From contig NC_091144.1 of NCBI RefSeq assembly GCF_041381155.1, forward strand, positions 29,878,980 through 29,942,979: a stretch of DNA of 64,000 bases, read 5' to 3'. This document shows, piece after piece, positions 2,301 through 62,061 of this stretch (the first letter of the stretch is position 1; the number at the start of each line of letters is the position of its first letter). Both the position numbers and the translations under genes were made by a program. A model generated the notes under the pieces. That model was given only the letters and a program-made list of their open reading frames with translations. It was not told the origin of the DNA and did no database searches. Source of the stretch: Argopecten irradians. Lineage: Eukaryota; Mollusca; Bivalvia; Pectinida; Pectinidae.

Positions 2301-4740
2301 CCACACACCCCAAGCCCACACGTTCCCTAAGACCCCCATTAGAATACGGAGATGTCTTTTTGTAACCAACAGCCCAATACCAGTAGTCTAATTAGAGGGT
2401 AAGCTCCAGGTATAACCTCCCACCAACAGGTAAACCACCCCCCTCTAACCCACATAAACCTGAACCACAGATTCCACCTCCATCCCCACACAAGTACGCG
2501 CCAAAGCCCAATTCACAGGACCATTAAGAAAACAAACACCTCACCTAAAACCTAACAACAAACGACAATAAGTGGTGTTATAAAACCCCGCCCAACACAA
2601 CCGTAGTACCTCCAAGGGTTATACTAACTGACAAGACTCACCAACTCACGCAAGCTTAGCCAATGAACCCCATCCACCCCCCCCTCCCCACCCCCCCACA
2701 ACCACAAACCGACGACCAATCCCATTTACACCCACCCCACTCAAACACTTAACCCACAGACAGTCCAATCAGTTTATAAACCGTATCAAACAACTAAACA
2801 AGGTTATAGTCCAAAAAAACTCAAAAACTCAGTGAGAATTATATGTCCCCCCCAATTAGTCATAACAACCCTGCCCACCAGGGGGCCATAATGTATAAGC
2901 CACCCCTAACCCCAAGCGGGACCTGTATCATAAGCAAACCCCACCCGTTTCTGACGAACGGTATTTTTTGCCAATGCGTGGGGAGTCAACCACCACCACC
3001 CAATGTTTTAATGCCCCGACCCAGGTTATGCAATCTTGCCAAATTTGGTTACAATTATACCATGAAAATCTCAGGACTGTTCTAGGACCAAGTATCATTA
3101 TACAGTAATCCGGTCCCTTCATATTAAAACCTTTGACCACATCCTGGTATACCCAGTGCCTATCAGACCCCTTAATTTATATACCACTATTCCCCGAATC
3201 TACCCAACTTTGTTTCAGAGCCGACATTAATCTTGATACCCCACAATCTGTCATTACAGACCCCCTATTAGGTAAATCCCAGCTGATTTATAGAGGATTT
3301 ATACACTATCTTTCCCTTCAGTTGTTTCCATGCTCCCTCCTGTTACAATGGGGGTGTCGAGCCACCTGCTAATATAGATGTTCTATCCCCTTACCCCATG
3401 GATGTCTGCTGTCAGGCCAACTTTGGTTAGCAATCCATGCTAAACGTCTAGAACCAGTCAGCGATTTAGTCAGGAGTGTACCTCTATTATCACCTATTGA
3501 CTGGGCCCAGTCCTATCAGCCTGCTTATACATGTAGGCCAACCCCAGCCTATCATAGAGTTCTAATGTTCACTTGCCCCCCAAGATGCTGTGACCTAATA
3601 TTACCGGTTATAATGCATGCAGATCCTAGGACAAGTAGCGATGTTACTGAGGTTACCTTGATTTACCCTGTCTAATGGGCCCCACCCTAATGCCGGGGTA
3701 GATCTGCAAAATTTTTTATGTTCTACCAAGGATGTTTTTAACCAAAAATTTTGGTCTTCAGTCAATCTATAGTAAGATGAATCTCGGACAAGTACATGCA
3801 TTATGCGTGTGTCTTCTGCACTTACTTAGTTTAGCTCTTCCAAACAGTTCGAAAGGTAACACTGATACGCTCTGTACATAATGTGGACACGTGCCCGAGA
3901 CAGCCTGTTCGATATAAATACTACCAGTACCCACTAGTAACTTACCACAGTACCAATAACTAGTAAATCTACAATTTCTTATCTTCGGTTTTAATAAATC
4001 CCCTCTATCGAATTACCACCCGAAAACGCTGTACGAATAGAAGGGAAAACACTTGGGCACATTTGATTGTAGTGAGTGGAACAGTATATATATATATTCA
4101 AGAACAATATAATATTTATAATCCTAGCCTGGTCCAAATAACGAACAAGACAAGCTGAATGCTGTCTCACCAGAGCACTACGCCCGCCACCCGTATCCCC
4201 CGAAACAGACAATTTCATTATGAATCACAAGCTAGATCCATCATCAAGGCTAAGACATACAGAATTCATGTAATGCTGTGCATGCTCCACTTGAATTAAA
4301 AATGTTCAGTTCGGTAAATATGATATAAATTACGCGGAACTAAAAGAAAACACGCTGCCCAACTGCACCCCAAAATATATAACAGTAAAGTCGATAAACA
4401 CCCTCTATAACTTGCCAAATAAGACAATAACTCCCGCCTCTAAATCCGCTGCAGGAATGAGACCTCAAAAAAAAACAATAATTAAAATCAAAAATGAACA
4501 TGACTTATCCACCGATCCCTCCACTACCACTCCAAATATTACTAGGTAAAACTCATACATAAATCACTGGCCGTTTGGTTAACTGACATTACACATACAA
4601 TTAATATATTTTTACATTAAATGCAGTACACACACTACAAATGAACCCCGCCTAAGGGATCGTGGGGGCAATTTTTGATATACCACACGCAGGTCGTTCC
4701 CAAGCCCTCCCAGCCTAACCCCAACGGCTGGTTTTTGGCA
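2301..4740. other. Transition zone, no gene seen
   Basis: The A/C bias fades over this stretch. It is strong to about 2,800, weaker to about 3,700, and near background after 4,200. Short open frames occur on both strands, but none has recognisable motifs or splice context. There is no RNA gene, inverted repeat or mobile-element signature. The smooth gradient is odd for a biological boundary and fits declining sequence quality toward the left end. Confidence 0.6.
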
Positions 4741-23414: not shown

Positions 23415-24809
23415 TTTTTTAGGTCATCTGACCCGAAGGGTCAGGATGACTTTAGTCATCATGCTTCGTCCGTCGTCGTGCGCCGTGCGCCGTCCGCCGT
23501 GCGCCGTCCGCCGTCCGTAACTTTTTCACATTTCAATCTTCTTCTCAAGTTTGACCAGTGGGATTGAGCTGAAACCTTACATGAAATGATCCTGACATGG
23601 TCCCGACAAAGTGTTGTTATTTTTCGGGTCGATCCGAAATCCAAGATGGCCGCCACAGCCGCCATCTTGAAAACACATTTTGAACTTCTTCTCAAGTTCT
23701 ACCAGTGCGATTTGGCTGAGACTTGCATGAAATGATCCTGACATGGTCCGACAAAGTGGTTGTTATTTTTTGGGTCGATCCGAAATCCAAGATGGCCGCC
23801 ACAGCCGCCATCTTGAAAACATCATTTTGAACTTCTTTCTCAAGTTCTACAAGTGCGATTTTGGCTGAAACTTGCATAAAAATGATCCTGACATGGTCCC
23901 GACAAAGTGTTGTTATTTTTTGGGTCGATCCGAAATCCAAGATGGCCGCCACAGCCGCCATCTTGAAAACACATTTTGAACTTCTTCTCAAGTTCTACCG
24001 GTGCGATTTGGCTGAAACTTGCATGAAATGATCCTGACATAGTCCCGACAAAGTGTTGTTATTTTTCGGGTTGATCCGAAATCCAAGATGGCCGCCACAG
24101 CCGCCATCTTGAAAACACATTTTGAACTTCTTCTCAAGTTCTACTAATGCGATTTTGGCTGAAACTTGCATGAAATGATCCTGACATGGTTCCGACAAAG
24201 TGTTGTTATTTTTCGGTCGATCCGAAATCCAAGATGGCCGCCACAGCCGCCATCTTGTAAAACACATTTTGAAACTTCTTCTCAAGTTCTACCGGTGCGA
24301 TTTGGCTGAAACTTGCATGAAATGATCCTGACATAGTCCCGACAAAGTGTTTGTTATTTTTCGGGTTGATCCGAAATCCAAGATGGCCGCCACAGCCGCC
24401 ATCTTGAAAACACATTTTGAACTTCTTCTCAAGTTCTACTTGTGCGATTTGGCTGAAACTTGCATGAAATGATCCTGACATGGTTCCGACAAAGTGTTGT
24501 TATTTTCGGGTCGATCCGAAATCAAAGATGGCCGCCACAGCCGCCGTCTTGAAAACACATTTTGAACTTCTTCTCAAGTTATACCGGTGCGATTTGGCTG
24601 AGACTTGCATGAAATGATCCTGACATGGTCCGACAAAGTGTTGTTATTTTTCGGGTCGATCCAAAATCCAAGATGGCCACCACAGCCACCATCTTGAAAA
24701 CACATTTTGAAACTTCTTCTCAAGTTCTACAAGTGCGATTTGGCTGAAACTTGCATGAAATGATCCTGACATGGTCCCGACAAAGTGTTCTTATTTTCGG
24801 GTTGATCCG
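23415..24809 (-). mobile_element. Tandem-repeat element nested in the LINE, 12-bp target duplications
   Basis: Nine units of about 146 bp each contain AAGATGGCCGCCACAGCC, a CTTCTCAAGTT block and a CATGAAATGATCCTGACAT block. They follow a head of GGTCATCTGACCCGAAGGGTCAGGATGAC and a GTCCGCCGTGCGCC-rich stretch. TTTCTGTTGCAT occurs immediately outside both edges (23,403-23,414 and 24,810-24,821), a 12-bp target duplication. The plus strand starts with a run of T, so read on the minus strand the element ends in a short A tail. It is noncoding. The A tail and long duplication suggest copying by LINE machinery. Confidence 0.75.
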
Positions 24810-26123: not shown

Positions 26124-26129
26124 TTCTCG

Positions 26130-26713
26130 TACGGAAGCCGTCTGGCGCCACACCAAAAAATGTATTTATTGTGTTCCCTCACAATACTATTGTGAGGCCA
26201 CACAATATTATTGTGTTCCCTCACTATCTTATTGTGAGGCCACACAATAATTATTGTGAGGGAACACAATCTTATTGTGAGGCCACACAATGCCATTGTG
26301 AGGCCACACAATCTTATTGTGAGGGAACACAATCTTATTGTGAGGCCACACAATAATTATTGTGATGGAACACATTATAACTGTGAGGTTCCCTCACAAT
26401 AATATTGTGTTCCCTCACAGTAATCATTGTGTTCCCTCACAATAATTATTGTGTGGACTCACAATAAGATTATGTTCCCTCACAATAAGATTGTGTTCCC
26501 TCACAATAATATTGTGTGGCCTCACAATAAGATTGTGTTCCCACACAATAATATTGTGTGGCCTCACAATAAGATTGTGTGCCCTCACAATAAGTATTGT
26601 GTGGCCTCACAATAAGATTGTGTTCCCTCACAATAGTATTGTGTGGCCTTACAATATTATTGTGAGGGAACACAATAAATATATTTTTGGTGTGGCGCCA
26701 GACGGCTTCCGTA
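26130..26713. mobile_element. Foldback element made of tandem CACAAT...ATTGTG palindromes
   Basis: The ends are inverted repeats of about 52 bp: TACGGAAGCCGTCTGGCGCC...GTGTTCCCTCAC on the left, and the same inverted on the right with one substitution and one indel. TTCTCG lies directly outside both edges (26,124-26,129 and 26,714-26,719), a probable 6-bp target duplication. The inside is a chain of roughly two dozen 15-bp palindromes, CACAAT-NNN-ATTGTG, separated by TTCCCT or TGGCCT (or their complements). Spacer orientation mostly reads AGGGAA/AGGCCA in the left half and TTCCCT/TGGCCT in the right half, switching near 26,390, so the whole element can also fold as one long hairpin. It has no protein coding capacity. 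Confidence 0.8.
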
Positions 26714-26719
26714 TTCTCG

Positions 26720-27389: not shown

Positions 27390-27598
27390 GTACGATGACA
27401 TATCTGCCGACATGGCGACATATTTGTGTTGATTGTCGTGGCAACTGCTCAGCACTTGCCAACACGTTTTGTCATTTTACTCGTTTGGCAACTTCTTTAC
27501 TAGTGTAACTGTTTTGTCATCCATATTGGCGAGTGTCTGGCTTTTGGGACAATTAATATTCCATACCGATATCAAGCCGAGTTTGACGCTGTACAGGT
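27390..27598 (+). repeat. Left arm of an imperfect inverted-repeat pair
   Basis: The arm holds GTACGATGACAT, TGTGTTGATTGTC, TTTTGTCATTTTACTCGTTT and CAAGCCGAGTTTGA. The same blocks appear in the same order on the minus strand of 28,345-28,608. The copies differ by several small indels. The pair could be the long ends of a decayed DNA transposon of about 1.2 kb, or two inverted copies of one repeat. Confidence 0.65.
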
Positions 27599-27816
27599 CA
27601 AGGGGTCGCGGTGGCCGAGTGGTTAAGATGTCCCGACATATTACCACAAGCCCTCCACCTCTGGGATGCGGGTTCGAATCCCATGTGGGGCAGTTGCCAG
27701 GTACTGACCGCTGACCGGTGGTTTTTCTCCGGGTACTCCGGCTTTCCTCCACCAACAAACCTGGCACGTCCTTATATGACCCTGGCTGTTAACAGGACGT
27801 AAAACAAAAACAAAAA
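27599..27816 (+). mobile_element. tRNA-headed SINE, MetaSINE-like
   Basis: The tRNA-like head has an A box (TGGCCGAGTGG, 27,612-27,622) and a B box (GGTTCGAATCC, 27,671-27,681), as needed for RNA polymerase III transcription. The central block GGTTTTTCTCCGGGTACTCC followed by GGCTTTCCTCCACC matches the kind of conserved centre described for MetaSINEs. The 3' end is GTAAAACAAAAACAAAAA. CTGTACAGGT flanks it on both sides (27,589-27,598 and 27,817-27,826), a clean 10-bp target duplication, so the insertion is probably complete and fairly young. It landed in the left arm of an older inverted repeat. Confidence 0.88.
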
Positions 27817-28319
27817 CTGTACAGGTGTGATGATTAAATGACCTTTGAAACCATAGTAATATTTTACGACACTTTTCTTGGTAGAATCATTGATTGGTGA
27901 CGAAGACTAAGGGTTTATACACTAAAGCAGTCTGTGGCTAATGTTGACGTTGGAATGAAAGTAAGCTTTTTGTGAAGTACCTCAATATAGGGTAAAGGAA
28001 AGTTTAATACTCCTGTTTATTCATCTTTACAAATATCGGGTATTATGTGGAAACTTGGGTTTTCCCTAGGTAGGGCCATATAATGAGAAATTTAGGTGAG
28101 CTGAATGCCTGCATTAAATTCGGCTGTGAATTTAGCTTCACTCCTAAACTGATAACCAGTCTCTAGAATATTGGGAGAAAAAAATCAATGAAAATTGGCT
28201 CGATTGTGTTGTCTCTACTACATGTCTGATTAAATTTCAAACTAGGGGCAGATAATCTTGTGAAGAGGACCTCTTATTAACAACTATGGGTATGTTATTT
28301 GTATATAACTGTAATCGCC
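27817..28319. other. Spacer between inverted arms
   Basis: Noncoding. A small imperfect hairpin (TTTAGGTGAGCT...AGCTTCACTCCTAAA) lies at about 28,090-28,150. No transposase remnant was recognised, so the enclosing inverted repeat has no visible coding partner. Confidence 0.45.
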
Positions 28320-28608
28320 TTTGTCTTAATGAAGTTTCGTTAAATATCGTTTTGGTTTCAAACTTGGCTCGCTATCACTGTGGAATGTTATGGTAATTGT
28401 CTCAAAAGCGAGACACTGTCCAATACGACTGATATAGGCCATGCGTAAGGATGGCAAAACAGTTGCTCTAGTAAAGCAGTTGCCAAACGAGTAAAATGAC
28501 AAAAAATGTTGCAAGTATTTTTTTTACTGAAGTAGTTGCGATGACAATCAACACAGATGTGTGTCCAACAGTTTAGCAAAGTAGTTGCCATATCGGCTTA
28601 TATGGGCC
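28320..28608 (-). repeat. Right arm of the inverted-repeat pair
   Basis: Read on the minus strand it repeats the blocks of 27,390-27,598 (GTACGATGG, TGTGTTGATTGTC, TTTTGTCATTTTACTCGTTT, GAGCCAAGTTTGA), with an extra insertion of about 25 bp before TGGACAGTGTCTCG. It has no SINE in the matching position, so the SINE arrived after the arms separated. Confidence 0.65.
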
Positions 28609-32861: not shown

Positions 32862-33692
32862 TTAATTCAATTGAGGATTTGATGGTGGAATGTAAATCGC
32901 ATTTCGTCTTGATCTCTTGTTTGATAAAACTTCAGTGTCAACCATTTGCATATGGTCTAGGAATCTGTCCTCTGTCAAATTACTTTCGGATGGAAGAATT
33001 TTAGTAAGACTATTCGCCCCATGGAAATTGCCGCTTGTTGAATCTTTCTGCACCTTTGGAGGCGCGTTAGCTGGTAATAGGTCATGAACTGATTTACGAG
33101 AACTCACACATTTTTTCCGCAACACAATGTCTGACGGATTGTTAGGAATGCCAGCATTGTTTTTAAACGCTTCATATTGTGCCTTGGTGTCGTTCCGAGC
33201 GTTCTGTTTGCATTCTCCCATCTTGGTATCAGGAGTACGATTTTCCCTTTCCAGTTTCGCAATATTTGCGGTTTCATCAAAAACCTGTACAGCGGTACCA
33301 GATTGCAACACATGTTTACATTCTTCAATTTGTTCTATGGCACTGTCGTACCTTTTCTGGAGTTCCTCCTTATACTTCAAAGACTCTCTGTTTTGTATTT
33401 GGAGACGGCTTCCAATTGATTTTATTTCGTTTCTAATTGTGACCAGTGTTTCTCTTTCTGTGTCGTTAATAAACTTCTGAATGCGTGATTTCCTTTGAGG
33501 CAATATATCTTCCAGTTCCATCTGTTTATGACCGTGGTGGATAGAAATGCTACATCTTATACAAATGAGTTCCTCGCAGCATGAACAGTATAGCACTACG
33601 TCTTTTTGTCTATGAAGAGGACATTTTGGATCTCCGTGTGGCCTGACAGCTATCTGGCCTATCCGGGTTGGTAGTTGGACGCTGGAAGTCAT
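32862..33692 (-). CDS. Short RING-less B-box protein (TRIM-like), 276 aa
   Basis: It is a single uninterrupted frame starting MTSSVQLPTR. A B-box type 2 zinc finger lies at residues 24-55, with ligands C24, H27, C36, C39, C44, C47 and the HHGH group at 52-55. A coiled coil follows to about residue 130, ending CKHVLQSGTAVQVFDE, a segment shared with the other B-box genes here. The coil is about 50 residues shorter than in the genes at 50,556 and 60,493. Instead of a beta-propeller, a 130-residue polar tail ends SRRNAIYIPPSNPQLN. A recognisable version of that tail (SSRRNPISI) occurs in the decayed copy at 44.0 kb, so the short form is probably ancestral to both rather than a fresh truncation. 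No RING is present, so ligase activity is unlikely; a cytoplasmic adaptor role is an inference from the family. Confidence 0.8.
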   Translation of the reverse strand: MTSSVQLPTRIGQIAVRPHGDPKCPLHRQKDVVLYCSCCEELICIRCSISIHHGHKQMELEDILPQRKSRIQKFINDTERETLVTIRNEIKSIGSRLQIQNRESLKYKEELQKRYDSAIEQIEECKHVLQSGTAVQVFDETANIAKLERENRTPDTKMGECKQNARNDTKAQYEAFKNNAGIPNNPSDIVLRKKCVSSRKSVHDLLPANAPPKVQKDSTSGNFHGANSLTKILPSESNLTEDRFLDHMQMVDTEVLSNKRSRRNAIYIPPSNPQLN

Positions 33693-34166
33693 TATATCAT
33701 TTCAATGTACTTCTGATATTCAACTGTGTACAATCTCCCTTCCTTCCGAACAGTAGTCACCCTACAACACAAACACATATAATTCGGTATGAAGCACGAG
33801 CTCCTGATATTGGACACATAAATTCACCTGCTTTTTAAACGTCTCCAGTTGCAGAGACTATATATTATACCGATACCTGACTGACATTATATCAATAAAT
33901 ACTATCTTGTTAAAGCCCCATTATGTTTTTGGGTGAAAAAATATCGTCATAAAGTACCAAACTTTGCTGAATACTAGAGCATATATCCTTATGAAAATAT
34001 CCGCTAATAAAAAATGCCCAACATTTCCATGTTTTTAAAAAGCAATAGAAAACCCCTCTTCAAAGAGGGGGAAATCCGTAGTTCCGCCCCAGAGCCAAAA
34101 CAATCTAGTACGCATGCGTAGGCACAAAAAAGTGGAATTTCCCTAACAAACTTCAACACATCGTGC
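33693..34166. promoter_or_regulatory. Upstream region of the short B-box gene
   Basis: The first 60 bp upstream (CAACTGTGTACAATCTCCCT...CGAACAGTAGTCA in plus orientation) are recognisable again at about 37,285-37,325 beside the decayed copy, so part of the 5' UTR or promoter was duplicated with the gene. No TATA box is certain. A GAAAACCCCTCTTCAAAGAGGGG hairpin lies at about 34,049-34,072. Confidence 0.35.
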
Positions 34167-44313: not shown

Positions 44314-47300
44314 AATAATGGAGCGGCTAAGGTCGATTTTTCGGCAAAATCGTTCAAAGTTTGAAAAAAAGCATGAAATTTTGCATATGGCTTCTTTAGG
44401 ACATAAGGTTTCAGGAAAAAATGGACCCCAAAAAATCATGGCCCCTAGCGGCCGCCACATTGGTTTTCAAAATGGCCGCCAAAAACCACCTTCTGTGACC
44501 CATAACTCACGTTCTATACCAGCTAAACCCAAACTTTAAACGTCTTCACCCACATTATTGATACTTAGTATCATTCTGGTAGTGTTAAACTTCATGTAGA
44601 AGGACCGCCATTTTGTACTTCAAGATGGCCGGCAACGTTGCGAGCTATATCTTCATATATCATGTATTTAAATGGATAAGCTGACTTTAAGCAAATATAG
44701 TGAGAGTTCTTATATTTGTGTAGTGTTTGATACATAAATATTTTGATTCTTATTTTAATTTCAACATGATCGCCATTTTAAAATCCAAGATGGCCGTTTA
44801 AATTAAAGTTGTTTCCGTTTTTCACTCTGTAAATGATCGAGCAAAAAATCTAGTTAACAAATGTTGATATATATGAAATGCCTTAAATTGCAACTCTGCA
44901 GGCGTCATCAGAGGATCATCGTTCATAAGCTTTATCGAATGCTCAACTGGAACATCCTCAAAGTCGCAAGTCAACAGCGATTGACCAAATCACTGCCCAT
45001 TTGCAGATAACACCTAACTCATACCTTGTCACTTCTACTGCGATTAATAGGGCGCATTCTCTTCTGTTTTTGACAGTAAATCCAGTTGATTTCTTGTCAC
45101 TACCCATTACTTTCAGTGTTGGCAATAGCTTTTAAGTTGAACGTGAAGGAAACAGGAACACCCATTCCTACATTCTAGGGTATTAGTATCTTCTACCAAA
45201 ACTTAATACTTCGTCTTTCTCCTTTCAAATCCTTCCTCATAGCGTAACTACTTTGGAACTGTCAAGTCATCCATAACCATTTGATAACATCTAGACACAC
45301 ATTTCACCTTACGGTGTCTGAGAACACAATCCACCTTATTTCTCATGTGTATGTATAAATTCCTTCTTTAGATCATACAGACGTCTGTCATCCCTATCTG
45401 CCTTTAGCAAATTTGATGAAAGTGTTTTCTTTCAGTGGCGAGGGCTTCTTTGGGTTTTTTTTCTCGTTTCATAATGTCTGTCTATTTACTTAGCGCCTTG
45501 TCATGGCAACCGCTATACTATTTTAAAGAGCTGGGGTTGTAGAACACCAGAGAGTTCTTGGTGGCACAATCAACAGCCTGCGCTATCGGTCCCGTTTTTT
45601 GTCATATATCGACGTCAACCAGAACTAAATTCGGCAAAGTTCAAGATGACCAATATCTGACTAAGTTAGTTTGCTGTCTATGTGGTCCTAATATTGTTTA
45701 TACTCTCTATCATATCCATTATTTACACTTAGTTTGAAGGCTTATTGTTCTTCTGTTGCGATATATTTTCACCAAGTACTTGGTGCCGTATGCATGTTTT
45801 ACTGACGGTGGCTATGCGTTTTAGGTGGATTTAGTTTGCACATACTGCACTAGTTTAATTCAACTCCATCATCTGTCTTGCATTTGCCAGCTTCATCTCC
45901 GGTAATGGGATTGGGAGTTCTAGCTCGGAGGTTCAGCTAACATTGGTAAAGGTATGACTATCTTCGCAAGGACTTGTTTGGGGTTAATTCTAGTGCCACT
46001 ACTGTAAAACTGACAGACGTGCCACAAGGGGTAATGTCAGACGAGGTAGACATTCAATCTTTGGTGGCAAAACCTTGCCATGAACTTACTTGGAGTCCTT
46101 CCTTAAGTGGAGTCTCCTGATGATGGAGTCATTCGGGATTACATCGAAGCAGTTTCTCTGACATTTTATCTGATTATTAACAATAGAGGGAATATCTTCC
46201 CCTGAATCCACATCAAATTGCCTGAGATGCGGTTGACGGCCGGGCATGAACGTGGTTATGCAATATAAGTACGACCATCTCATCCATGAAGCCTCCTTTG
46301 GAAGACGAATCCCAAATGATAGCCTTGTATTAAGTACTTCTGCCTGCAGGTCTGATATTTCTCCATCACACCAAGTATCTCTCAGATGACTGCCATAGTG
46401 ATTTTGGTTAAATGTTTTCTGATAATTCCCTGGCTGTGGTTAGGAATAGAGGGATGATATCATCCATATGCATTAAATAGTTTCAGTCATAATACACCAT
46501 TTGAAGCCTTGAATGCCTTCTTGCTTTAGCCAAAATATATCCGTTAGCCGCCATGAATATTTCCATTCTTCTGGCAAATAATATCTTACATTCCACTTTC
46601 ATAAAGGAGATGATCCTCAATTGGTTTTGAGGAAACACCTGCTCTGCTCTCTACAGTTTATCAGATAGCATACATGTATCTTTCTTCCGAATGACATTAA
46701 TGAGTATCTACAGTATCTTCTATAAGTTTTTATCACATCTTGCATTTGTAGACAGTATAAAGTATACCAATCGGTTATTGTGATGATGTAATGAAAATCT
46801 CCTTCAGAAAAGGTTATTTCCAATTACATGATAAGACGATTTCACAGATCAATTTGTGATGTTTTCTCTAATTAAATATGAACTTACATTTTGTGTTAAA
46901 AAGTCTCTGCCCAAGCCTCATGTTAGAGTTAAAGCACTGAGTTCTTGTATGAATGTTATTTCCATAATGGCAAATATTGCTATAGTGTAGAATGTGATTC
47001 TATAACTATAATTTTCTTTAGGCATGAAAATGGATGTGAAACATGAATGTTTTTCAAGCTGCTGTACACAGAAATAGTTAAAGGTCCGATACCTGTCCAA
47101 AAGGATGAAATGATAAGGACGACGTCGGGGATCATACACGACCCGCTTTTTGGAAGTTAACGTTTTCATTCAATTCATCTATTCATATTGATTTAGAGAA
47201 TAATGCTAAGTGTAAAATTTACAGAAGTTAATAACATTTGGGACTCAAGTTTTAAAGTAATGTTTCATAAATTATCAGCCGTTCCGGTTAACTTATGTAC

Positions 47301-48157
47301 ATTTAATTAAATGCTTCCGGTCATCTTGAATTTCAGATTGGCGGCCATTTTGAAAACTAAATAAGAATCGAATTGTTTTGTAACGAAAGCTACAAAAAAT
47401 AGATACTCACTGTATTTGCAGGTGTCTTATTTGCTTAAAGTCAGCTTAGGCAATCATTATATTATTATAATATACAGATATACATGTAGACACATGTTGT
47501 AAATTTGGCGGCCATCTTGGAATGCAAAGTGACGGTCTTTCTACATGAAGTTTAACACTACCAGAATGATCCTAAATATCTATGATAATAAGTACCAATA
47601 ATATGGGTGTAGACGTTTAAAAATGTTGCTTTGATTTTTTGTTCGATAATTTACAGAGTGAAATTTGGAAACAAATTTAACTTTAACGGCCATCTTGGAT
47701 TTCAAAATGGTGGTCAAGTTGAAATTAAAATAAGAATCAAATTATTTATGTATCAAACACTACACAAATATAAGTACTCTCACTATACTTGCTAAAAGTC
47801 AGCTTATCTATTTAAATGCATTATATATAAAGATACAGCTCGCAAACTTGGCGGCCATCTTGAAATATAAAATGGCGGTCCTTCTACATGAAGTTTAACA
47901 CTACCAGAATGTTCCTAAGCGTCAATAATATGGGTGTAGAAATTTAAAGTTTGGGTTTAGCTGGTATAGATCGTGAGTTATGGGTCACAGAAGGCGTTGT
48001 TTGGCGGCCATTTTGAAAACCAATATGGCGGCCGCTAGGGGCCATGATTTTTCGGAGACCATTTTTTCCCTGAAATCTTATGTCCTGAAGAAGCCATATG
48101 CAAAGTTTCATGCTTTCTTCAAACATTGAACGATTTCCATGCTTAGCCGCTCCACTA
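44314..48157. mobile_element. 3.8 kb element with ~550-bp inverted ends
   Basis: ATGGAGCGGCTAAGG...ATCGTTCAAAGTTTGAA at the left is mirrored at the right (...CTTAGCCGCTCC), and similarity runs about 550 bp inward on each side through blocks such as GTGTTAAACTTCATGTAGAA and AATAAGAATCAAATT. The right arm carries an additional diverged 350-bp copy of its inner part (about 47,285-47,640). TATA, or TATAA, stands at both edges, a probable short target duplication. The arms are rich in CCAAGATGGCCG. The 2.4 kb between them contains only decayed coding tracts. The superfamily is unassigned. It split a B-box pseudogene. Confidence 0.7.
45980..46560 (-). pseudogene. Unidentified decayed coding tract inside the inverted-repeat element
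   Basis: The clearest piece reads, on the minus strand, LNTRLSFGIRLPKEASWMRW then CITTFMPGRQPHLRQFDVDS and IVNNQIKCQRNCFDVIPNDS, ending LHLRKDSK. Less clear pieces lie on both sides, including EDVPVEHSIKLMNDDPLMTP near 44,910. I do not recognise the family. It could be the remains of the element's own transposase or of a captured host gene. Several stops and shifts interrupt it. Confidence 0.35.
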
Positions 48158-50555: not shown

Positions 50556-52040
50556 TTACGTTCTGAAATACGGATACTTAACAGTCTTAATATCCGACTT
50601 CTTTCCCCGAAAAAGCATTCTTTTCTTTTCTGCAACTGCAGAAATCCACAAAACATCGTCTGACTGAAGTCCGATCGTTGTTATTCTTTTTTTCTCTGTG
50701 TGTATAGTTCTTACGTATTGTCCTGTCCCAGTGACCAACTGTACAGCGTTGTTGGACGTTGAAACTACAAGATTCCCTCTGCTGTCATAAACTGCACTGC
50801 AAGGAAAGTCAGTTCCTGTTCCGTTGTAGATAAACTTGAATCTGAGTTCCTGGTCATATAAAATGATATTCCCAAACCAGGCATCGTCATCAGAGTTGTA
50901 TCTTCGTAGAACTGCATAGTTATCTATGACGGGACACTGTGAAATAGATCCGGATTCTACATATTCGATTCCCTGTTGATCTATGTTTACAAAGGTTGAG
51001 ACAACTTTTTGTCCTTCCGTTGTGTAAATTGTTATTTCATTGTGTGAGCCGACCACCACATGTTCACTCTTTGAGATGCAGATGCACAACGGCGACGAAT
51101 CAGTTGTAAAGCGTCTTACCGGATACTTGGTTCCTGCAAGGACTTCGTAAATAGATGTATCGTCTTCACAGGAAAACCAGACACAGTTTGTCTTTGGTGA
51201 TAGGGTACAGCAGCTTATGGCACTTGTGTGTTTTATTTTCTGCTGGATTCGTCCTTTGAAATCTACCAATTGCATCTCATTGGATGAGGAATTGCTCAGC
51301 CACATCCCAGATGGCGATGGGCAGATTGACGTAACTTCAGATTTATGCTGGAAGTGCAGTTGTACCTGCGACTGGCTTGTTGTGGTAGACAATTGACCCA
51401 ATATCAGTTTCAGCTGATCTATAACTAATTCACGGGGACGAAATTCCACATCATACAATACTGGATCTGTCGGAAGTTTGGGGACGAAATCAGAAACGCA
51501 AGACGCTTCATCATATACTTGGACGAATGAACCCGATTGTAACACATGTTTAACTGTTTCCAGCTTGTCTGAAAGAATTTTGAATCTTTGTTCCAGCTCT
51601 TCCTTATACTTCAGCAGCAATTTCTTATTTTGATCTCGAAACTTGCCACTTTCACTCAAAAACTCCTGAATAATAATGTCGACTATGTTTTTACAATCTG
51701 CTCCTTGTTGCTTGATATGTTTGTCAATATCCTCAAAGTCTGATTCATTTTGAGTCAACATATTTTCCACTGATCTTAACTCCGTCTTTAGGCGAACCAG
51801 AATATTATTTTCCGTGCTGGTTATGCAGTCACTAAGAACAGCTTTCTTCTGTATTGTTATATCCAACAGTTCAACCAAACTGTGACCATGGTGATCTGTA
51901 ATACTGCATGTAATGCATATCAGACAGTCACACTCCGAACAATACAAAACTACATCCTTTTGTTTATGGATAAAACACTTAGCGTTCCCCTTTTCTCTGA
52001 CGGGCATCTGGCCCTTTTGGAAGGCTACGTCTGAGGCCAT
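50556..52040 (-). CDS. RING-less B-box, coiled-coil, beta-propeller protein (TRIM-like), 494 aa
   Basis: A single frame. I chose the start at MASDVAFQ because all full-length members here share an in-frame YKMAS, with AAAATGG context. The B-box 2 finger spans residues 22-53 (C22, H25, C34, C37, C42, C45, H50/H51, H53). The coiled coil runs from about 55 to 175 and ends VKHVLQSGSFVQVYDE. From about 235 to the end are repeated strand patterns such as GMWLSNSSSNEMQLVDFKG, NCVWFSCEDDTSIYEVL, VYDSRGNLVVSTSNN and VLWISAVAE, typical of the NHL-like propeller of TRIM2/3/71-type proteins. With no RING, it may bind partners or nucleic acid through the propeller rather than act alone as an E3 ligase; that is inference. 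It is divergently arranged with the pseudogene at 54,062. The frame is intact, so it may be functional. Confidence 0.88.
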   Translation of the reverse strand: MASDVAFQKGQMPVREKGNAKCFIHKQKDVVLYCSECDCLICITCSITDHHGHSLVELLDITIQKKAVLSDCITSTENNILVRLKTELRSVENMLTQNESDFEDIDKHIKQQGADCKNIVDIIIQEFLSESGKFRDQNKKLLLKYKEELEQRFKILSDKLETVKHVLQSGSFVQVYDEASCVSDFVPKLPTDPVLYDVEFRPRELVIDQLKLILGQLSTTTSQSQVQLHFQHKSEVTSICPSPSGMWLSNSSSNEMQLVDFKGRIQQKIKHTSAISCCTLSPKTNCVWFSCEDDTSIYEVLAGTKYPVRRFTTDSSPLCICISKSEHVVVGSHNEITIYTTEGQKVVSTFVNIDQQGIEYVESGSISQCPVIDNYAVLRRYNSDDDAWFGNIILYDQELRFKFIYNGTGTDFPCSAVYDSRGNLVVSTSNNAVQLVTGTGQYVRTIHTEKKRITTIGLQSDDVLWISAVAEKKRMLFRGKKSDIKTVKYPYFRT

Positions 52041-54061
52041 TTTGTATGTACGATACACTAGGTCTGTAAATGTAAAACTGCTATTAAGACATGACTCCGA
52101 CTTCTAAGCTAAAACTCATGGATGAATTCATTCGGCTGATTGTAAACACTATTATTATCCGACGACGAATGCATGTACACCTATACATTGCAAAATCTTT
52201 TCATATCTACTGGCGTAATAATTGAATTGAATAACGTTCTGAGCACATCCCCGAATACGGGTCAACACTACAATAAGTTGTCTCTGACGATAGCTCTACC
52301 TGTGTATACTATCACATGATCTCGAGACAGAAGTAGATAATAGACAATAATAAATTTTAAATACCTCATTAATCAGATCAACTACTATGGATTACGTCTA
52401 CAACCTTGCATTGCTATCTAGATGAACTACGATGTTTTAAAACCGTAATACATTATAACCTTACCATCTAACTACACTTTTGTGAAAACAAATATATCAC
52501 ATTGCACTGATTGTTGTTTTGTAAAGTTGTTATGATCAAAGTTATTCATACAACGACAAGATATGCATTAGGATTCGATCATATTCTCGTTGGACAACTA
52601 TGAAAAAGACATTGAGTTCTTTATCTTGGCTAAGACACACTGTAGTCTATTAAATGGTGGTACAGTACTTCTTCTCAGCTGCCAGTAAAAAGAAATTATG
52701 ACGAGTGTTTTGCCAGTTGTCAGTTGGTGTAAGTCCAGTTGGAGTGTGCAGTTCGGTATCATTGTCAATATGTTTCAGTAAGAAAGTATTATAAACTGTT
52801 AAAAGTGATTCCGCTATCACAAGGAGACACAAAACGGGCAAAACTTATTGAATTTGAAAACGTGTTCTTAGATAATCAGGCGTTAAATTGTATCTACAAA
52901 TAAAAAACAAATTTTGGGGTTTGGGGCTGCCACTGTCTTTTATATCAAGAAGCAGAAAAGTAGACGCCATCATTTGACGTGCTTTTGTGACCCTCGAAAG
53001 TGGTATAGGCCTTTTGCCGCGGATGATATGCACTTCCTCGAGTTGATAAATCACCGAATCCAACTGAAAACAGGTCGATATTTGTATAATATCAACCTAT
53101 AACGGCCAATATACCCTTCCGAGCATTGTTACCTCCCGTAATGGGATGGTGTTATTCATTCATTTATTTATACATAATTACTATTTTTATTCACTTAATA
53201 CTGCTACTAAAACATGTCATATATGTGTAGTATTTTTGAGGCTACACTACTATAAACAAATGTGTCCATCTTTACTAGAGTATTTGTAAACAAAAACCCC
53301 TAATTAACAAACGGAAATACTAAAAACTATTTATTATTATATTTATCATGACATGTTCTCCTAAATGCATTACTACATATATTTTTTTAATTTAAGTGCA
53401 GTATTAATTGCTAAAACTGATCATTGTCTAATATAGACCCCTGTTTATTCCGGCATGACTGTAAGGCATTTGTCTTCTTTATTTATCGTAATTAAAACCT
53501 GTACAATACGGAAATCTGGTTAAAGCTACCGGCCAAAATACTGGTCGCGGTTAAATCCGATTTAGAGCAGTCATACTGTGTCCCTTTACACAATTTGAAC
53601 CACAAATGACTTTTATGTAACTGTTTACATCGAGTATGTTGACTAATATATAAATGCCAGGGACAGCTTGGTACCAACTGACATGCCTTGTAAAAAGTAT
53701 CCACGTGCACAAATTCATGTATAGTTCTATAAATCATATTCAAGTGAAAATGCTATTTACTAAAAGCCCATAAAATTTGCAACAAAGTTAAATAGATTCA
53801 ACATAAATCAGCGTTAAATACAATCATCATTTTATATGTCTTATCGGCTTCTTGACTAGGGCCATTTGAGTCGTTCAAGATAGACAATAAAATGATATTG
53901 GATTTTAGGGCCTGTAATAATATATATATAACAAGGAAGTAATACAAGATTCAGAATGGGTTTTTTGTTTTTTTGTTTTTGTATTTGGCCATGCGGGGCG
54001 GGCAGAGATTACATTCAAGAACTAGATCTGAGGTACAACATGTTGATATTTGACATATAAA
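52041..54061. other. Intergenic region between divergent B-box genes
   Basis: It should hold the promoters of both genes. No clear TATA box is placed. A decayed dispersed repeat is at about 52,600-52,682. The 72-codon minus-strand frame at 52,845-53,063 has some coding character but no motif. A T-run interrupted by G (53,960-53,983) resembles a retroelement tail. Confidence 0.45.
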
Positions 54062-56080
54062 ATGGCATCAAGCAAACCAATAGGAACAGCAGACGGTCAG
54101 TGTTCCGTCAGGAAAAAGGGCGACTCAAGATGTTCCCTTCATAAATCTAAGGAGTTACTGCTATACTGTTCAGACTGTGATGAACTTATTTGTATTGTAT
54201 GCAGCATTTCCACCCACGAAGGACATAGTCAAATGGAATTGACTGACATATTACAGAATAGGAAATCAGAACTTGAAAGTTTCATCAGTGACACAGAAAA
54301 TATGACATTTTATCAAATCAAGGAGGAACTTCAGTCAGTTGAAATCATGTTGAAATCAAGACATCACACGAATGATTATTTGTTGAAGTATAGAAAGGAA
54401 TTGCAGGAAAGGTACGACAATACTACCGTACAGGTAATTGAATGTAAGCAAGTATTACTATCGGGTACCCCAGTACAGGTGTATGATGAAGTTTCATCTT
54501 TACATAAAAAGGTCCGTGAACCACCACCAGATAAGGTTTGTGAACCCTCACCAGATGAGGTCCGTGAATCATCACCAGAGAAGGTTTGTGAACCACTACC
54601 AGAGAAGGTTTGTGAACCCTCACCAGATAAGGTTCGTGAATAATCACCAAAAAAGGTTTGTGAACCACTACCAGAGAAGGTTTGTGAACCATCACCAGAG
54701 AAGGTTTGTGAACCACCACCAGAGAAGGTTTGTGAACCACCACCAGAGAAGGTTTGTGAACCACCACCAGAGAAGGTTTGTGAACTACCACCAGAGAAGG
54801 TTTGTGAACCACTACCAGAGAAGGTTTGTGAACCATCACCAGAGAAGGTTTGTGAACCCCCACCAAAGAAGGTTTGTGAACCACTACCAGAGAAGGTTTG
54901 TGAACCATCACCAGAGAAGGTTTGTGAACCACCACCAGAGAAGGTTTGTGAACCACTACCAGAGAAGGTTTGTGAACCATCACCAGAGAAGGTTTGTGAA
55001 CCACCACCAGAGAAGGTTTGTGAACCACTACCAGAGACGGTTTGTGAACCACTACCAGCGGAGGTTATATATGTTCGTGAACCATCACCAGACAAGGTTT
55101 CTGAACTTGTACAAGAGGAGGTCCGTGAACGACCACCAGAGGAAGTCCGTGAACCACCGCCAGGGAAGAAATATGAATCGCCGCAATCGATATTTAAGAG
55201 ACCTTCTATTCAGACGTCAGGCGGATCAACTCCAAAAGACCACATTCTTGGCGAGCCTACTGTACAGGTACGGTTTCAGACTCAAAATCCCTGTAGTGTA
55301 ATAATTCCGGTGTCATCAGGTGTTTGGACCGGCGATTGTGACTCAAGAGAAATAACTCTAGTTGACTTCCGGGGTCATAGGAAGCAACACATCAAACACA
55401 AAAACCGCATACAATGTATGGCCATATCACCAACCACGAGCAATGTTTGGTTTGCCTGTTTTAAGGATTCCGCAATTTATGAAAAGATATCGGGATTGAT
55501 CACCCCAGTCAGCCGCTTTGAATCCGAGTCATCAAATTTAAGCCTCTGCATGACACTGGATTAACAGGTCGTGGTAGGTTCACTTTACAATTTAACAAAA
55601 TATTCAACAGATGGTCAAAATGTGGCCACTACACATTTCAGCAAGGAGTTGAAAAACTTACATGGTCTTGTGCCAAGATCAATATCACAGTGTCCAAAAT
55701 CAAAAGACTTTGCAGTTTCGTTAACATGCAAGCTAGAAGATAGTGATTCCCGGCAAGGAAAGCTTGCAGTGTATGACCAAAACCTCTGCTTTAAGTTTTC
55801 ATACAACGGAGAGAATGAGAATATCCCTTTGAAGGCGGTATATGATAACAGAGGAAGTTTGGTAGTTATTGTCGAGTTTCTCGGCGTATCTACCGTACAA
55901 GTGTTGACGTCTACAGGTCAGTTGATGAAGACAATACACATAGAGAAAACGGATCAAATAACGGATATAGGGACTCGGGATGGTCTCTTGTGGATTTCCG
56001 TGATTTCGGGAAGGAGCCGACGGTTTAGAGGAAACAAAAATTTTTCAATCAAAGTCACCCAATACTACAAGGCATGGTAG
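54062..56080 (+). pseudogene. B-box/propeller gene with an expanded 8-residue repeat and two in-frame stops
   Basis: The start MASSKPIGTADGQ aligns with its relatives. The B-box occupies residues 24-55 (C24, H27, C36, C39, C44, C47, H52, H55). The coil lacks the ~50-residue middle segment, as in the gene at 32,862. Codons 150-368 are about 27 copies of KVCEP(P/S/L)PE. The propeller follows from about codon 415 (SSGVWTGDCDSREITLVDFRG) to the end (FSIKVTQYYKAW). The whole length stays in one frame. Two TAA codons interrupt it: at 54,641 in repeat unit 6, one base from the TCA seen in unit 3, and at 55,562, where relatives have a sense codon. The rest is well preserved, so inactivation looks recent. 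The first 193 codons could still make a B-box plus coil protein. Confidence 0.8.
54509..55165 (+). repeat. 24-bp coding minisatellite, about 27 units
   Basis: The unit is AAGGTTTGTGAACCACCACC AGAG with variants (CCATCA, CCACTA, CCCTCA; GTCCGT for GTTTGT at both edges). It spans 657 bp, which is 27 x 24 plus a 9-bp irregularity near 55,065. Edge units are more diverged and inner units nearly identical, as expected for slippage or unequal exchange. Because the period is a multiple of three, antisense frames of 200 or more codons are also open; they are shadows. A higher-order pattern of 72 bp (PPPE, PLPE, PSPE) is visible in the right half. Confidence 0.88.
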
Positions 56081-58898: not shown

Positions 58899-60492
58899 AA
58901 GGACACAAGTCGTTAGTTATATAATAATTTTGATTTATTTCATATAAGACTTTTTCTATTGCAACTTCCAATTTATAACCCCTATTAATGCAAATACGAA
59001 CGCCAATAATAAGAATCCCAATTTAGACTCAGAATCGCCAATTATTAATCAAAGGAAAATTAAAAGCAAAACATACATGTGTACGAAGACTCCTGAATTG
59101 TACAAACGACTAGAACCACAAGTTTCCGAAGAGTAAGCGTCATTTCCAACAATGCAGAATATCGACAGTCAAAACCTCCGCAGCAATTTAGATGGTAAAC
59201 ACCAACAGTCATACCAGCCATAAAAGAAGTCACTGAACAAGTCTTGAATTGAATTTTGAATATTTATAAGTGAAATCATGGTGTCAAAACGTTAAACTTC
59301 GCCGTAGTCTTCGTTCAAATTACAGCTGTAAAGTTTGTGTTGTTGATTTATTCGTCAATATTCATAATTCATCATTTTAGTCTTAATAATTTATTCCTGA
59401 AATATTTGACCAACCAATATTTGAGCATGTAAATAAAGCTTCAACCATTTAAAATTTAAACCATCACAACAAAGAAATGATGTAAATAAAAAAAAAATGA
59501 AAAAATATTATTTCCACATAAGAAAAACTCTAGTCAAAAACTATTTAAGGAACCATAACAGTAACAACAATATTGTTGCGACATCTTGCAACACAACAGC
59601 TAAAACGAGTATAAAAACGAATTACTTTTGAATATATGTTCTTAGAATTTGCAATGTAAAGGATACCGTGATGATGCTATCACTAAATAAAATGTCAACC
59701 ATTTGAAAAAATGAGATATCCTTAATTCAAGAAATATTTGAAACACGGCCCCGATAAGATAGATTAATCTAAATAGTACACACACAATTTGTTAAAAGTA
59801 AAAGAGTTTTATAACTGATAAATGTAGTTTCTGGAAAATAGAGTATCCTTTATTTTTATTTATATATATTAGACATGATTTACATCGTTTTGAAATTGTG
59901 TTTATTCAATCATAAACTGAATACTGACTGCAAAGCAAACTATGCATCGCTTAGGTAATGGTGATGATATTATATATTGCAAACAAACACATCATTCTGA
60001 TTATATGTGCATATTATACCATCATATATTGTGACATTTTCTAGTTGAAACATAATAACAATAAAAAGAAATTCAGTAATCTATAGAAAAATGAATATTG
60101 ACCCAATTCATCTTTGCATGAACACCGCCGCCTTTTAGTAAACACGGATGTATCACATAGCGTTAGCTTGTAATTTAAGATACTCCAGTATACACGGTAA
60201 CATCAGTGAGATTTGTGTAACATCAGTGAGATTTGTGCAGCCAGCATTCTGCTTCACTCAATGTTCTAAAGTAGGACATTGTTAACGGGTGAATGATTTT
60301 CTGCATACCAGATGGTGTTATGTATGTAAATGTCGCCATTTTGAAATTTTCTCTTCGGTGTAACGGAAGGACAAAAAAGCTCCAAATGGATCGCCGTAGA
60401 CTGACGGATTACAGATACACATTTTATCCGCAAAGGGACAAGTGTAAAATAGGTCATTTTGAATTGATTCATAAGTGAAGTTAGCGTACAAA
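58899..60492. other. Intergenic, upstream of the last B-box gene
   Basis: AT-rich. GTAACATCAGTGAGATTTGT is directly duplicated at about 60,198-60,237. No TATA box or other promoter element is certain. Sequence up to 60,492 contains the in-frame AAGTTAGCGTACAAA leader before the chosen start. Confidence 0.45.
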
Positions 60493-62061
60493 ATGGCTTC
60501 AAACGTGTCGCTGGGGGACCGACATGGTCAGGTACATGTCCCTCGTAGGCCCAAAGGTGATCCGAAGTGCTCTGTTCATAGAACTAAGGAGGTGGTATTG
60601 CACTGTTCGGACTGTAATGAACTTATCTGTATCACATGTAGTATTTCTACCCATAACGGACACAGACAAGTGGAACTGACTGACATAACATCACGTGAAA
60701 AATCTGTGCTTCAGGATTATATAAATACCACAGAAAAAACTACTCTTCTGCATATCCAACAAGAAATCGTGTCAGTTGAGAGTAAGATAACTGAAAATGA
60801 CACAGACTTTGAGGAACTTGAACAGAAAGTGAAGGACCATGGTGAAGCCTGTAAGAAACAAATAGACACCCTTACGGAGGAATTCGTGTCTAAAAGTGTA
60901 AAGTTTAGGGAAGAAAACAGGGATTTACTGATCAAGTACAAGAAGGAACTCGAGGAAAGACAAACATTTCTTCTTGAACACATGAAAGAATGCAAACAAG
61001 TATTACAGCAAGGTACGTCCATCCAGGTCTACGACACAACGGTCAATATTCCCGATAACGTTTCCGAATTTCCAGCAGAGCCAACGTTATGTACAGTCGA
61101 TTTTCGTCCTTGTCAGTCAATGACTGAACAGATGAGAACGGTTTGGGGTATTTTGGACATATCTACCCTTCTTGCGAGCGGAGTGAAACTTTGTGAGAAA
61201 ACTCTTGATCAACCTGTTGTGCGACCAAAGTTCCAACGCCCAATGGAGTGTACCTCAATCAGTCCAGGGTCGTCTGGTGTCTGGTTGAGTGACTGCGAAT
61301 CAAAAGAGATGCTGCTGGTGGACGTCGAAGGTCGAATCAAACAGAAGACAAAGCACAATGGTGATATACATAGTATCACCTTGTCACCAAACTCAGGCAA
61401 TATTTGGTTTTGTTGTGTAGACGATTTGTCTATTTACGAAGTCCTTTCAAACGGAAAAGAACTTGTAAAACGCATTACGACCAATTCGTTACCAGAACGA
61501 ATCTGCATATCAAAAGAGGAGAATGTTATAGTTGGCTCAGGAATCAACATCACAATCTACACAACTAATGGTAAAGTGACGGCTACCTCGTCTGTCAGCA
61601 AAGAACTTCAGAAAAAAGGAACCGTCACTCCAGGATCCGTCTCACAATGTCCAGTAACTAGTCACATTGCAGTCACATACATGTATCAATCAAAAGAAGA
61701 TACGTCTTGTGGAGTGTTGCATGTATTAAACAAAGACCTCATATTACAATTTGTCTATGAGGGAACGGAGTGTGATCTTCCACGGAACACAGTCTATGAC
61801 AGCAGAGGGAATCTGGTAGTGGCTACTTTTAACAAGAAAGTGCAGCTTGTCAGTGGGACAGGACATTATATCAGGACTCTACACGTGGAAAACATAAACG
61901 GAATAGGGTGCATAGGGATTGGGATGGGTGATGTGTTGTGGATTTCTGTACTTTCAGAAACGAAAAAATTGTTCGCACGTACCACAAAATCAGATATTAA
62001 AACCATCAAGTACTACAAAACCCGAAGAACGTATGACATTGGATATAACTCTGCATCATGA
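60493..62061 (+). CDS. RING-less B-box, coiled-coil, beta-propeller protein (TRIM-like), 522 aa
   Basis: A single intact frame. The start MASNVSLGDRHGQ is preferred over an ATG six codons upstream because the relatives share YKMAS. The B-box 2 finger has ligands C26, H29, C38, C41, C46, C49, H54 and H57. The coil is full length (about 60-180: DFEELEQKVKDHGEACKKQI, EFVSKSVKFREENRDLLIKY, CKQVLQQGTSIQVYDT). The propeller begins near 265 with SSGVWLSDCESKEMLLVDVEG and continues with NIWFCCVDDLSIYEVL, VYDSRGNLVVATFN and DVLWISVLSETKKL. The tail YKTRRTYDIGYNSAS is longer than in its relatives. It is closest in layout to the gene at 50,556. It is likely a cytoplasmic adaptor or sensor; the specific ligand is unknown. 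No frame damage is seen. Confidence 0.88.
   Translation: MASNVSLGDRHGQVHVPRRPKGDPKCSVHRTKEVVLHCSDCNELICITCSISTHNGHRQVELTDITSREKSVLQDYINTTEKTTLLHIQQEIVSVESKITENDTDFEELEQKVKDHGEACKKQIDTLTEEFVSKSVKFREENRDLLIKYKKELEERQTFLLEHMKECKQVLQQGTSIQVYDTTVNIPDNVSEFPAEPTLCTVDFRPCQSMTEQMRTVWGILDISTLLASGVKLCEKTLDQPVVRPKFQRPMECTSISPGSSGVWLSDCESKEMLLVDVEGRIKQKTKHNGDIHSITLSPNSGNIWFCCVDDLSIYEVLSNGKELVKRITTNSLPERICISKEENVIVGSGINITIYTTNGKVTATSSVSKELQKKGTVTPGSVSQCPVTSHIAVTYMYQSKEDTSCGVLHVLNKDLILQFVYEGTECDLPRNTVYDSRGNLVVATFNKKVQLVSGTGHYIRTLHVENINGIGCIGIGMGDVLWISVLSETKKLFARTTKSDIKTIKYYKTRRTYDIGYNSAS

Follow-up and report, generated by a model that had tools for sequence, protein, structure and literature searches.

The stretch of Argopecten irradians DNA analyzed here (64,000 nucleotides of contig NC_091144.1, referred to as the window) carries an insertion of 584 bp at 26130–26713, in which near-identical inverted ends enclose a long array of short palindromic units (Table 1). 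An earlier note on this DNA had placed its boundaries correctly and had described it as a foldback element mobilized as a whole; the inverted ends, together with the perfect 6-bp duplication TTCTCG outside them, support this description. We consider it quite probable that the element is a non-autonomous IS3EU-type DNA transposon of the foldback or miniature inverted-repeat transposable element (MITE) kind, with a minisatellite core and a transposase supplied from elsewhere.

Table 1. Features of the foldback element in window coordinates
Feature	Positions	Strand	Basis
Left target-site duplication TTCTCG, 6 bp	26124–26129	+	Read directly; same as 26714–26719
Left terminal inverted repeat, array excluded (38 bp; TACGG.. 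end)	26130–26167	+	Alignment with 26677–26713
Left foldback arm, 271 bp, 11 units	26130–26400	+	Alignment to the reverse complement of the other arm; inferred centre
Array of 24 units ATTGTG-N6-CACAAT, linkers of 3 or 4 nt, period about 21 bp	26168–26676		Unit list, spacing, Tandem Repeats Finder
Right foldback arm, 313 bp, 13 units	26401–26713	-	Gapped global self-alignment; local extra hairpin in the fold; unit count
Right terminal inverted repeat, array excluded (37 bp)	26677–26713	-	Alignment with the left end
Right target-site duplication TTCTCG, 6 bp	26714–26719	+	Perfect match to the left copy

The element has the termini TACGG..CCGTA; its ends start with TACGGAAGCCGTCTGGCGCCACACC, and the end sequence is TACGGAAGCCGTCTGGCGCC. 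Outside the array, the left terminal inverted repeat (TIR) and the reverse complement of the right one match at 36 of the 38 columns of their alignment, one column being a gap. A longer terminal alignment gives 50 identical columns out of 53, two of the remaining three being gaps, and the perfect part extends over 25 bp in the gapped alignment or 30 bp without gap counting. The clean 52-bp ends described previously are thus near-identical over about that length, but they contain two gaps and a much shorter perfect part. The 20-base end, allowing up to three mismatches, matches nowhere in the window other than at the element's own two ends, and no second copy of the element was found within the window. 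MITEs are recognized by being short and non-coding, by TIRs and a duplication, and by a high copy number; the element shows the first four of these five features. Three open reading frames (124, 88 and 93 aa, from a set of frames of at least 80 aa considered around the element) lie mainly inside it; Pfam gives no match above a curated cut-off for any of them. The observed/expected CpG ratio is 0.27 in the element, compared with 0.73 and 1.04 for the tested flanks, which may be a mere consequence of the unit sequence. A word in the left flank, ATTGTGATGG, is also present in unit 10; we dismissed it as a sign of a unit-like insertion site, because the window has 81 places outside the element (the flank's own included) at which one of its 10-mers begins, which makes the match uninformative.

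Tandem Repeats Finder reports the array as 24.0 copies of period 21 at 26167–26678. It comprises 48 half-sites, 24 ATTGTG and 24 CACAAT, in strict alternation (42 exact, six with a single mismatch), in line with the "about two dozen" palindromes noted before. The units can be read in two registers. In ATTGTG-N6-CACAAT, the register of constant length (18 bp), the N6 segment has 6 nt in 23 of 24 units and 9 nt in unit 11, which adjoins the centre; its sequence is mostly TTCCCT or TGGCCT, or the reverse complement of one of these. In the alternative register, CACAAT-N-ATTGTG, there are 23 palindromes, and the earlier description of every unit as a 15-bp palindrome holds for 18 of them (gap of 3 nt), the other five being 16 bp long (gap of 4 nt); both half-sites are exact in 18 of the 23, and 14 of these are 15-mers. 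The palindromes are spaced by 21.36 bp on average, where a spacing near 21 bp had previously been reported. With up to two mismatches, CACAATNNNATTGTG occurs at 23 places in the window, 18 of them inside the element, against 7.8 ± 2.7 in shuffled sequences (0 of 100 shuffles reach 23).

At a larger scale, the element is arranged as two arms. We place the centre near 26400, since an odd half-site, ACTGTG at 26380–26385, pairs with its mirror image CACAGT at 26416–26421. Compared with the reverse complement of the other arm, the outer parts are identical in 81 of 86 alignment columns and the inner parts in 116 of 125. The spacers follow the same symmetry: A-type N6 segments occur in 8 of the 10 units preceding unit 11 and in 1 of the 13 following it (Fisher 7e-4; unit 11 omitted, counts entered manually from the unit list), and only unit 3 violates the symmetry because units 1 and 24 mirror one another. 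The spacers therefore do change orientation at the midpoint, as had been claimed, although the flip is not clean. Nearly the whole element is an inverted repeat with little unique middle, and the inverted repeats contain tandem repeats (24 units), which are the two hallmarks of foldback elements. A genuine inverted duplication of the arms is present, beyond the palindromy of the units.

Folded end to end as a single RNA strand, the element reaches -420 kcal/mol, compared with -145 ± 6.6 kcal/mol for 100 shuffles (z -42; 0/100 as low). With DNA parameters, the whole element folds to -273 kcal/mol and only to -123 kcal/mol when pairs span at most 40 nt, so that a free strand would favour one long hairpin over a row of small ones. 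Both forms, which the earlier note had put forward as a 580-bp hairpin or a row of small hairpins, are possible on paper, but the long hairpin is far stronger. To separate unit palindromy from arm symmetry, units and linkers were reordered and/or flipped at random with the ends kept (60 arrays each, DNA parameters). Arrays both permuted and flipped have a mean of -252 ± 10 kcal/mol and none of the 60 folds as low as the real element; likewise, none of 60 arrays permuted without flips folds as well. Because every unit is a palindrome, a tandem array pairs with itself whatever the order of its units, and since randomized arrays come this close to the observed value the strength of the hairpin is mostly a by-product, overlain by a smaller symmetry at the scale of the arms.

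The linkers and internal similarity of the array bear on how it grew. With units oriented and unit 11 omitted, AAG follows 7 of 10 TGGCCT-type units; of the 11 TTCCCT-type units with a linker before them, 7 have AAG there. By these counts, and those of AAT and AATT given below, the repeat is partly a 42-bp pair of a TGGCCT-type and a TTCCCT-type unit, loosely kept. Shifting 26168–26370 against itself by 106 bp gives an identity of 0.85, pointing to block duplication.

Non-autonomous DNA transposons are usually classed by the length of their target-site duplication and by their terminal letters. From its termini we infer that the element belongs to the IS3EU superfamily. In complete IS3EU families, the termini are described as always TA..TA and the duplications as usually 6 bp (PMC10045372), while fungal IS3EU families are reported to have TIRs longer than 30 bp and ends of the form TAYGG..CCRTA (PMC12730594). 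The element has TA at both ends, a 6-bp duplication (TTCTCG twice, at one insertion only), and TIRs of more than 30 bp with TACGG..CCGTA, which agrees with the form stated for the fungal families. Two further accounts place IS3EU sequences in repetitive DNA: a table in an oyster satellitome study labels two satellites DNA/IS3EU (PMC8268682), which suggests the presence of this superfamily in molluscs and within satellite DNA, and the Tribolium satellite TCAST10 is said to resemble an IS3EU element in one half of its sequence (PMC5844308). A scan of the window for TA ends, a 14-bp TIR and a 6-bp duplication found no other IS3EU-like element, only the one studied.

Several observations weigh against this assignment and the history that goes with it. 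No transposase was found among the 16 distinct window translations run through Pfam. The termini and the duplication rest on a single insertion, because there is only one copy, and 6-bp duplications are also described for Polinton and for the GingerRoot families, the ends of the latter being mostly TA..TA (PMC10045372). The main text of a survey of bivalve transposons is without IS3EU, which is absent from the 17 superfamilies looked for there (PMC10294476). A lax rule (14-bp TIR with at most two mismatches, 6-bp duplication, TA ends) matches 4 of 10 random sequences, and the IS3EU case consequently rests on the longer TIR; the 25-bp perfect start makes the case of this element much stronger than the lax rule does. 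As regards the array, the 42-bp order is loose, AAT or AATT following only 6 of 13 TTCCCT-type units, and when units were flipped without reordering, 2 of 60 control arrays equalled or surpassed the fold of the real element. Finally, the sole 7-letter word common to the 32-bp end and the units is GCCACAC, and 22% of 2000 shuffled ends reach 7; as this sharing is no more than chance, nothing links the units to the terminal site. A motif common to the terminal site and the units, as in Tetris, was rejected for this same chance-level overlap.

The units might instead form a dense binding array, a likeness that the earlier note had drawn, in which each palindrome is bound by a dimer, of either the transposase or a host factor, on one face of the DNA, and in which the spacing of about 21 bp lines up the sites and so raises transposition or recruits the factor. 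We hold both the array and this consequence to be unlikely. The regular mean spacing given above fits such an array, as does the length of N6, constant in all units but one while linkers have 3 or 4 nt. Half-sites also vary less than linkers: with unit 11 omitted, they are off consensus in 5 of 276 cells, and 11 edits are needed over the 74 linker cells even when each linker is scored against the nearest of four allowed ones (nominal Fisher 3e-5; the linker excess over N6 gives 3e-3), P-values that are a guide only because the cells share ancestry and are not independent. N6 itself, however, again with unit 11 omitted, is off consensus in only 4 of 138 cells, so that low variation extends beyond the half-sites, and mutable loops of small hairpins could give the same contrast between linkers and half-sites; either the units are constrained or the hairpin loops change faster, and the data favour neither. 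The chance-level overlap of the terminal 32 bp with the units also speaks against a binding role. A more far-reaching version, which we regard as unlikely, is that the body of an IS3EU-lineage element has been rebuilt as a functional 24-site platform for a transposase or host protein, or as a hairpin able to self-copy in replication; half-sites and N6 length would then be conserved, with linkers free to vary. The 23 units other than unit 11 match the symmetric lac operator at 13–16 of 18 positions in the better orientation, which we treat as coincidence; we know of no LacI-type repressor in animals. The dimer motif of SOX18 is described as inverted ACAAT/ATTGT half-sites 5 nt apart (PMC6265484). 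Its half-sites are similar to those of the element, but the gap in the palindromes is 3 nt (18/23) or 4 nt (5/23) and not 5, so that a SOX dimer site was rejected and the motif counts against a binding array. A precedent for binding within repeats is provided by Galileo, whose transposase is reported to bind, through its THAP domain, sites within the tandem repeats of the long TIRs (PMC3688188).

Three other explanations concern the element as a whole. It could be a foldback element of another superfamily, either Mutator or P, where most named foldback elements belong, or an unnamed one; we judge this quite unlikely, given termini that fit IS3EU and a duplication of 6 bp, compared with the 8–10 bp of Tetris, which its authors assign to Mutator and which exemplifies the Mutator-type foldback element. 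It is improbable that the element acts via RNA, with read-through from either side yielding a long and almost perfectly paired hairpin for processing into small RNAs: the RNA fold is far below that of any shuffle, but its strength stems mostly from the palindromy of the units, and no Rfam match reaches the gathering score in the window, where ARAGORN and Rfam (at the same score) found no tRNA or other known RNA. An assembly or sequencing artefact from a folded read is extremely improbable; chimeric reads can produce long inverted repeats, but point changes and a difference of two units set one arm apart from the other, and the element is flanked on both sides by an exact 6-bp duplication.

The history that we favour, that of a non-autonomous IS3EU-type transposon, takes as its starting point the ends, duplication, units, arms and predicted fold, all of which are directly evident in the DNA. 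By analogy with its class, a transposase made elsewhere would act on the ends and insert the element, leaving the 6-bp duplication TTCTCG. The core would be a minisatellite of a 21-bp palindromic unit, partly a 42-bp pair, expanded by slippage or unequal exchange, and the array would then have been duplicated in inverted order, perhaps via hairpin-templated copying. The array would most simply be an expanded minisatellite carried along as a passenger, and the repeats might conceivably be used as extra transposase-binding sites, as in Galileo.

Within the same window, 4 of 8 translations examined encode B-box proteins, and pieces of LINE-type endonuclease and reverse transcriptase are also present. 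Four reading frames of the B-box zinc-finger type, distributed over both strands (32862–33701, 50556–52103, 54047–54643 and 60475–62061), probably represent a locally expanded gene family. The B-box protein frame at 54047–56080 (+) contains a 24-bp repeat in about 23 copies (54509–55066), encoding an 8-residue repeat, KVCEPPPE and variants; two stop codons, one of which falls within the repeat, interrupt the frame ahead of its end. A 146-bp tandem repeat (satellite; 8.7 copies, 92% match) neighbours the element at 23527–24809. Inverted repeat pieces about 3 kb apart at 44570–47741, the longest of 99 bp (44742–44840 / 47643–47741), are perhaps another DNA transposon, and a further inverted repeat at 27467–28504 has arms of 56 bp with outer ends about 1 kb apart. 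Approximately 2.2 kb within 1–2300 is extremely C-rich and of low complexity, and the first 4 kb has a GC skew of -0.716.

We compared the element with known systems. It shares with IS3EU (taken together with GingerRoot), as these are described, the TA..TA and TAYGG..CCRTA ends, the 6-bp duplication and TIRs longer than 30 bp, and differs in that it is without a transposase and has a palindromic minisatellite as its core. Like Galileo/Foldback of Drosophila, it has long, internally repetitive inverted repeats, and as reported for Galileo F copies, the number of repeats differs between the two sides; unlike the element, with its palindromic 21-bp units, Galileo is described as a member of the P superfamily with TIRs of more than 1 kb and, in the F group, repeats of about 210 bp. 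Tetris of Drosophila virilis is likewise a non-autonomous foldback element with tandem repeats in its TIRs, but has 220-bp units in addition to its different duplication length and superfamily. The pearl-type MITEs of bivalves (CvA, DTC84) are also non-autonomous and modular with short internal tandem arrays, and DTC84 has a palindrome close to the repeat junction; in the account given of them, however, the monomers are satellite-like and number up to six, and no foldback of palindromic 21-bp units is described (PMC5139131).

Searched against genome contigs, the array pattern matched one locus, in the cyanobacterium Plectonema radiosum (L017, 4306–4515), where ATTGTG-N6-CACAAT recurs every 21 bp with nine exact units. 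That array, in contrast to the one studied here, is direct and in one orientation, with the spacer TCGGGT in 9/9, and no inverted ends accompany it among repeats of at least 15 bp in L017 4000–4900; the only inverted repeat there, at 4249–4279, is a separate hairpin of its own. We take the likeness as convergence. The first 16 bases of the end match 16 stretches in viral contigs, which we attribute to chance because no exact match exceeds 18 bases, a single stretch agrees at 19 of 20, and none comes with an array; a relaxed 25-position end pattern gave 0 matches, and viral contigs likewise gave 0 for each of three patterns of the array or its units. Among the matches listed in a literature search for sequence words of the element, only two 10-letter end words occur and no longer ones. 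In the papers searched, we found no description of an IS3EU element with a palindromic 21-bp array, Repbase and Dfam, the likeliest place, lying outside this search. The earlier remark that no named family is known with this inner structure stands, within that search, for the array, while the ends and the duplication indicate the superfamily IS3EU.

Foldback elements with internal repeats, and bivalve MITEs with satellite-like cores, are already known. The element described here would add IS3EU to the P and Mutator lineages as one having a foldback form with internal repeats, and it illustrates how foldback structure can arise as a by-product, a palindromic tandem array being self-complementary without any design at the scale of the arms. 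The role of internal repeats in transposition is described as an open question for Foldback and Phantom elements (PMC3688188). If copies of this element vary in unit number, they would serve as a natural experiment on whether such repeats increase transposition or simply build up.
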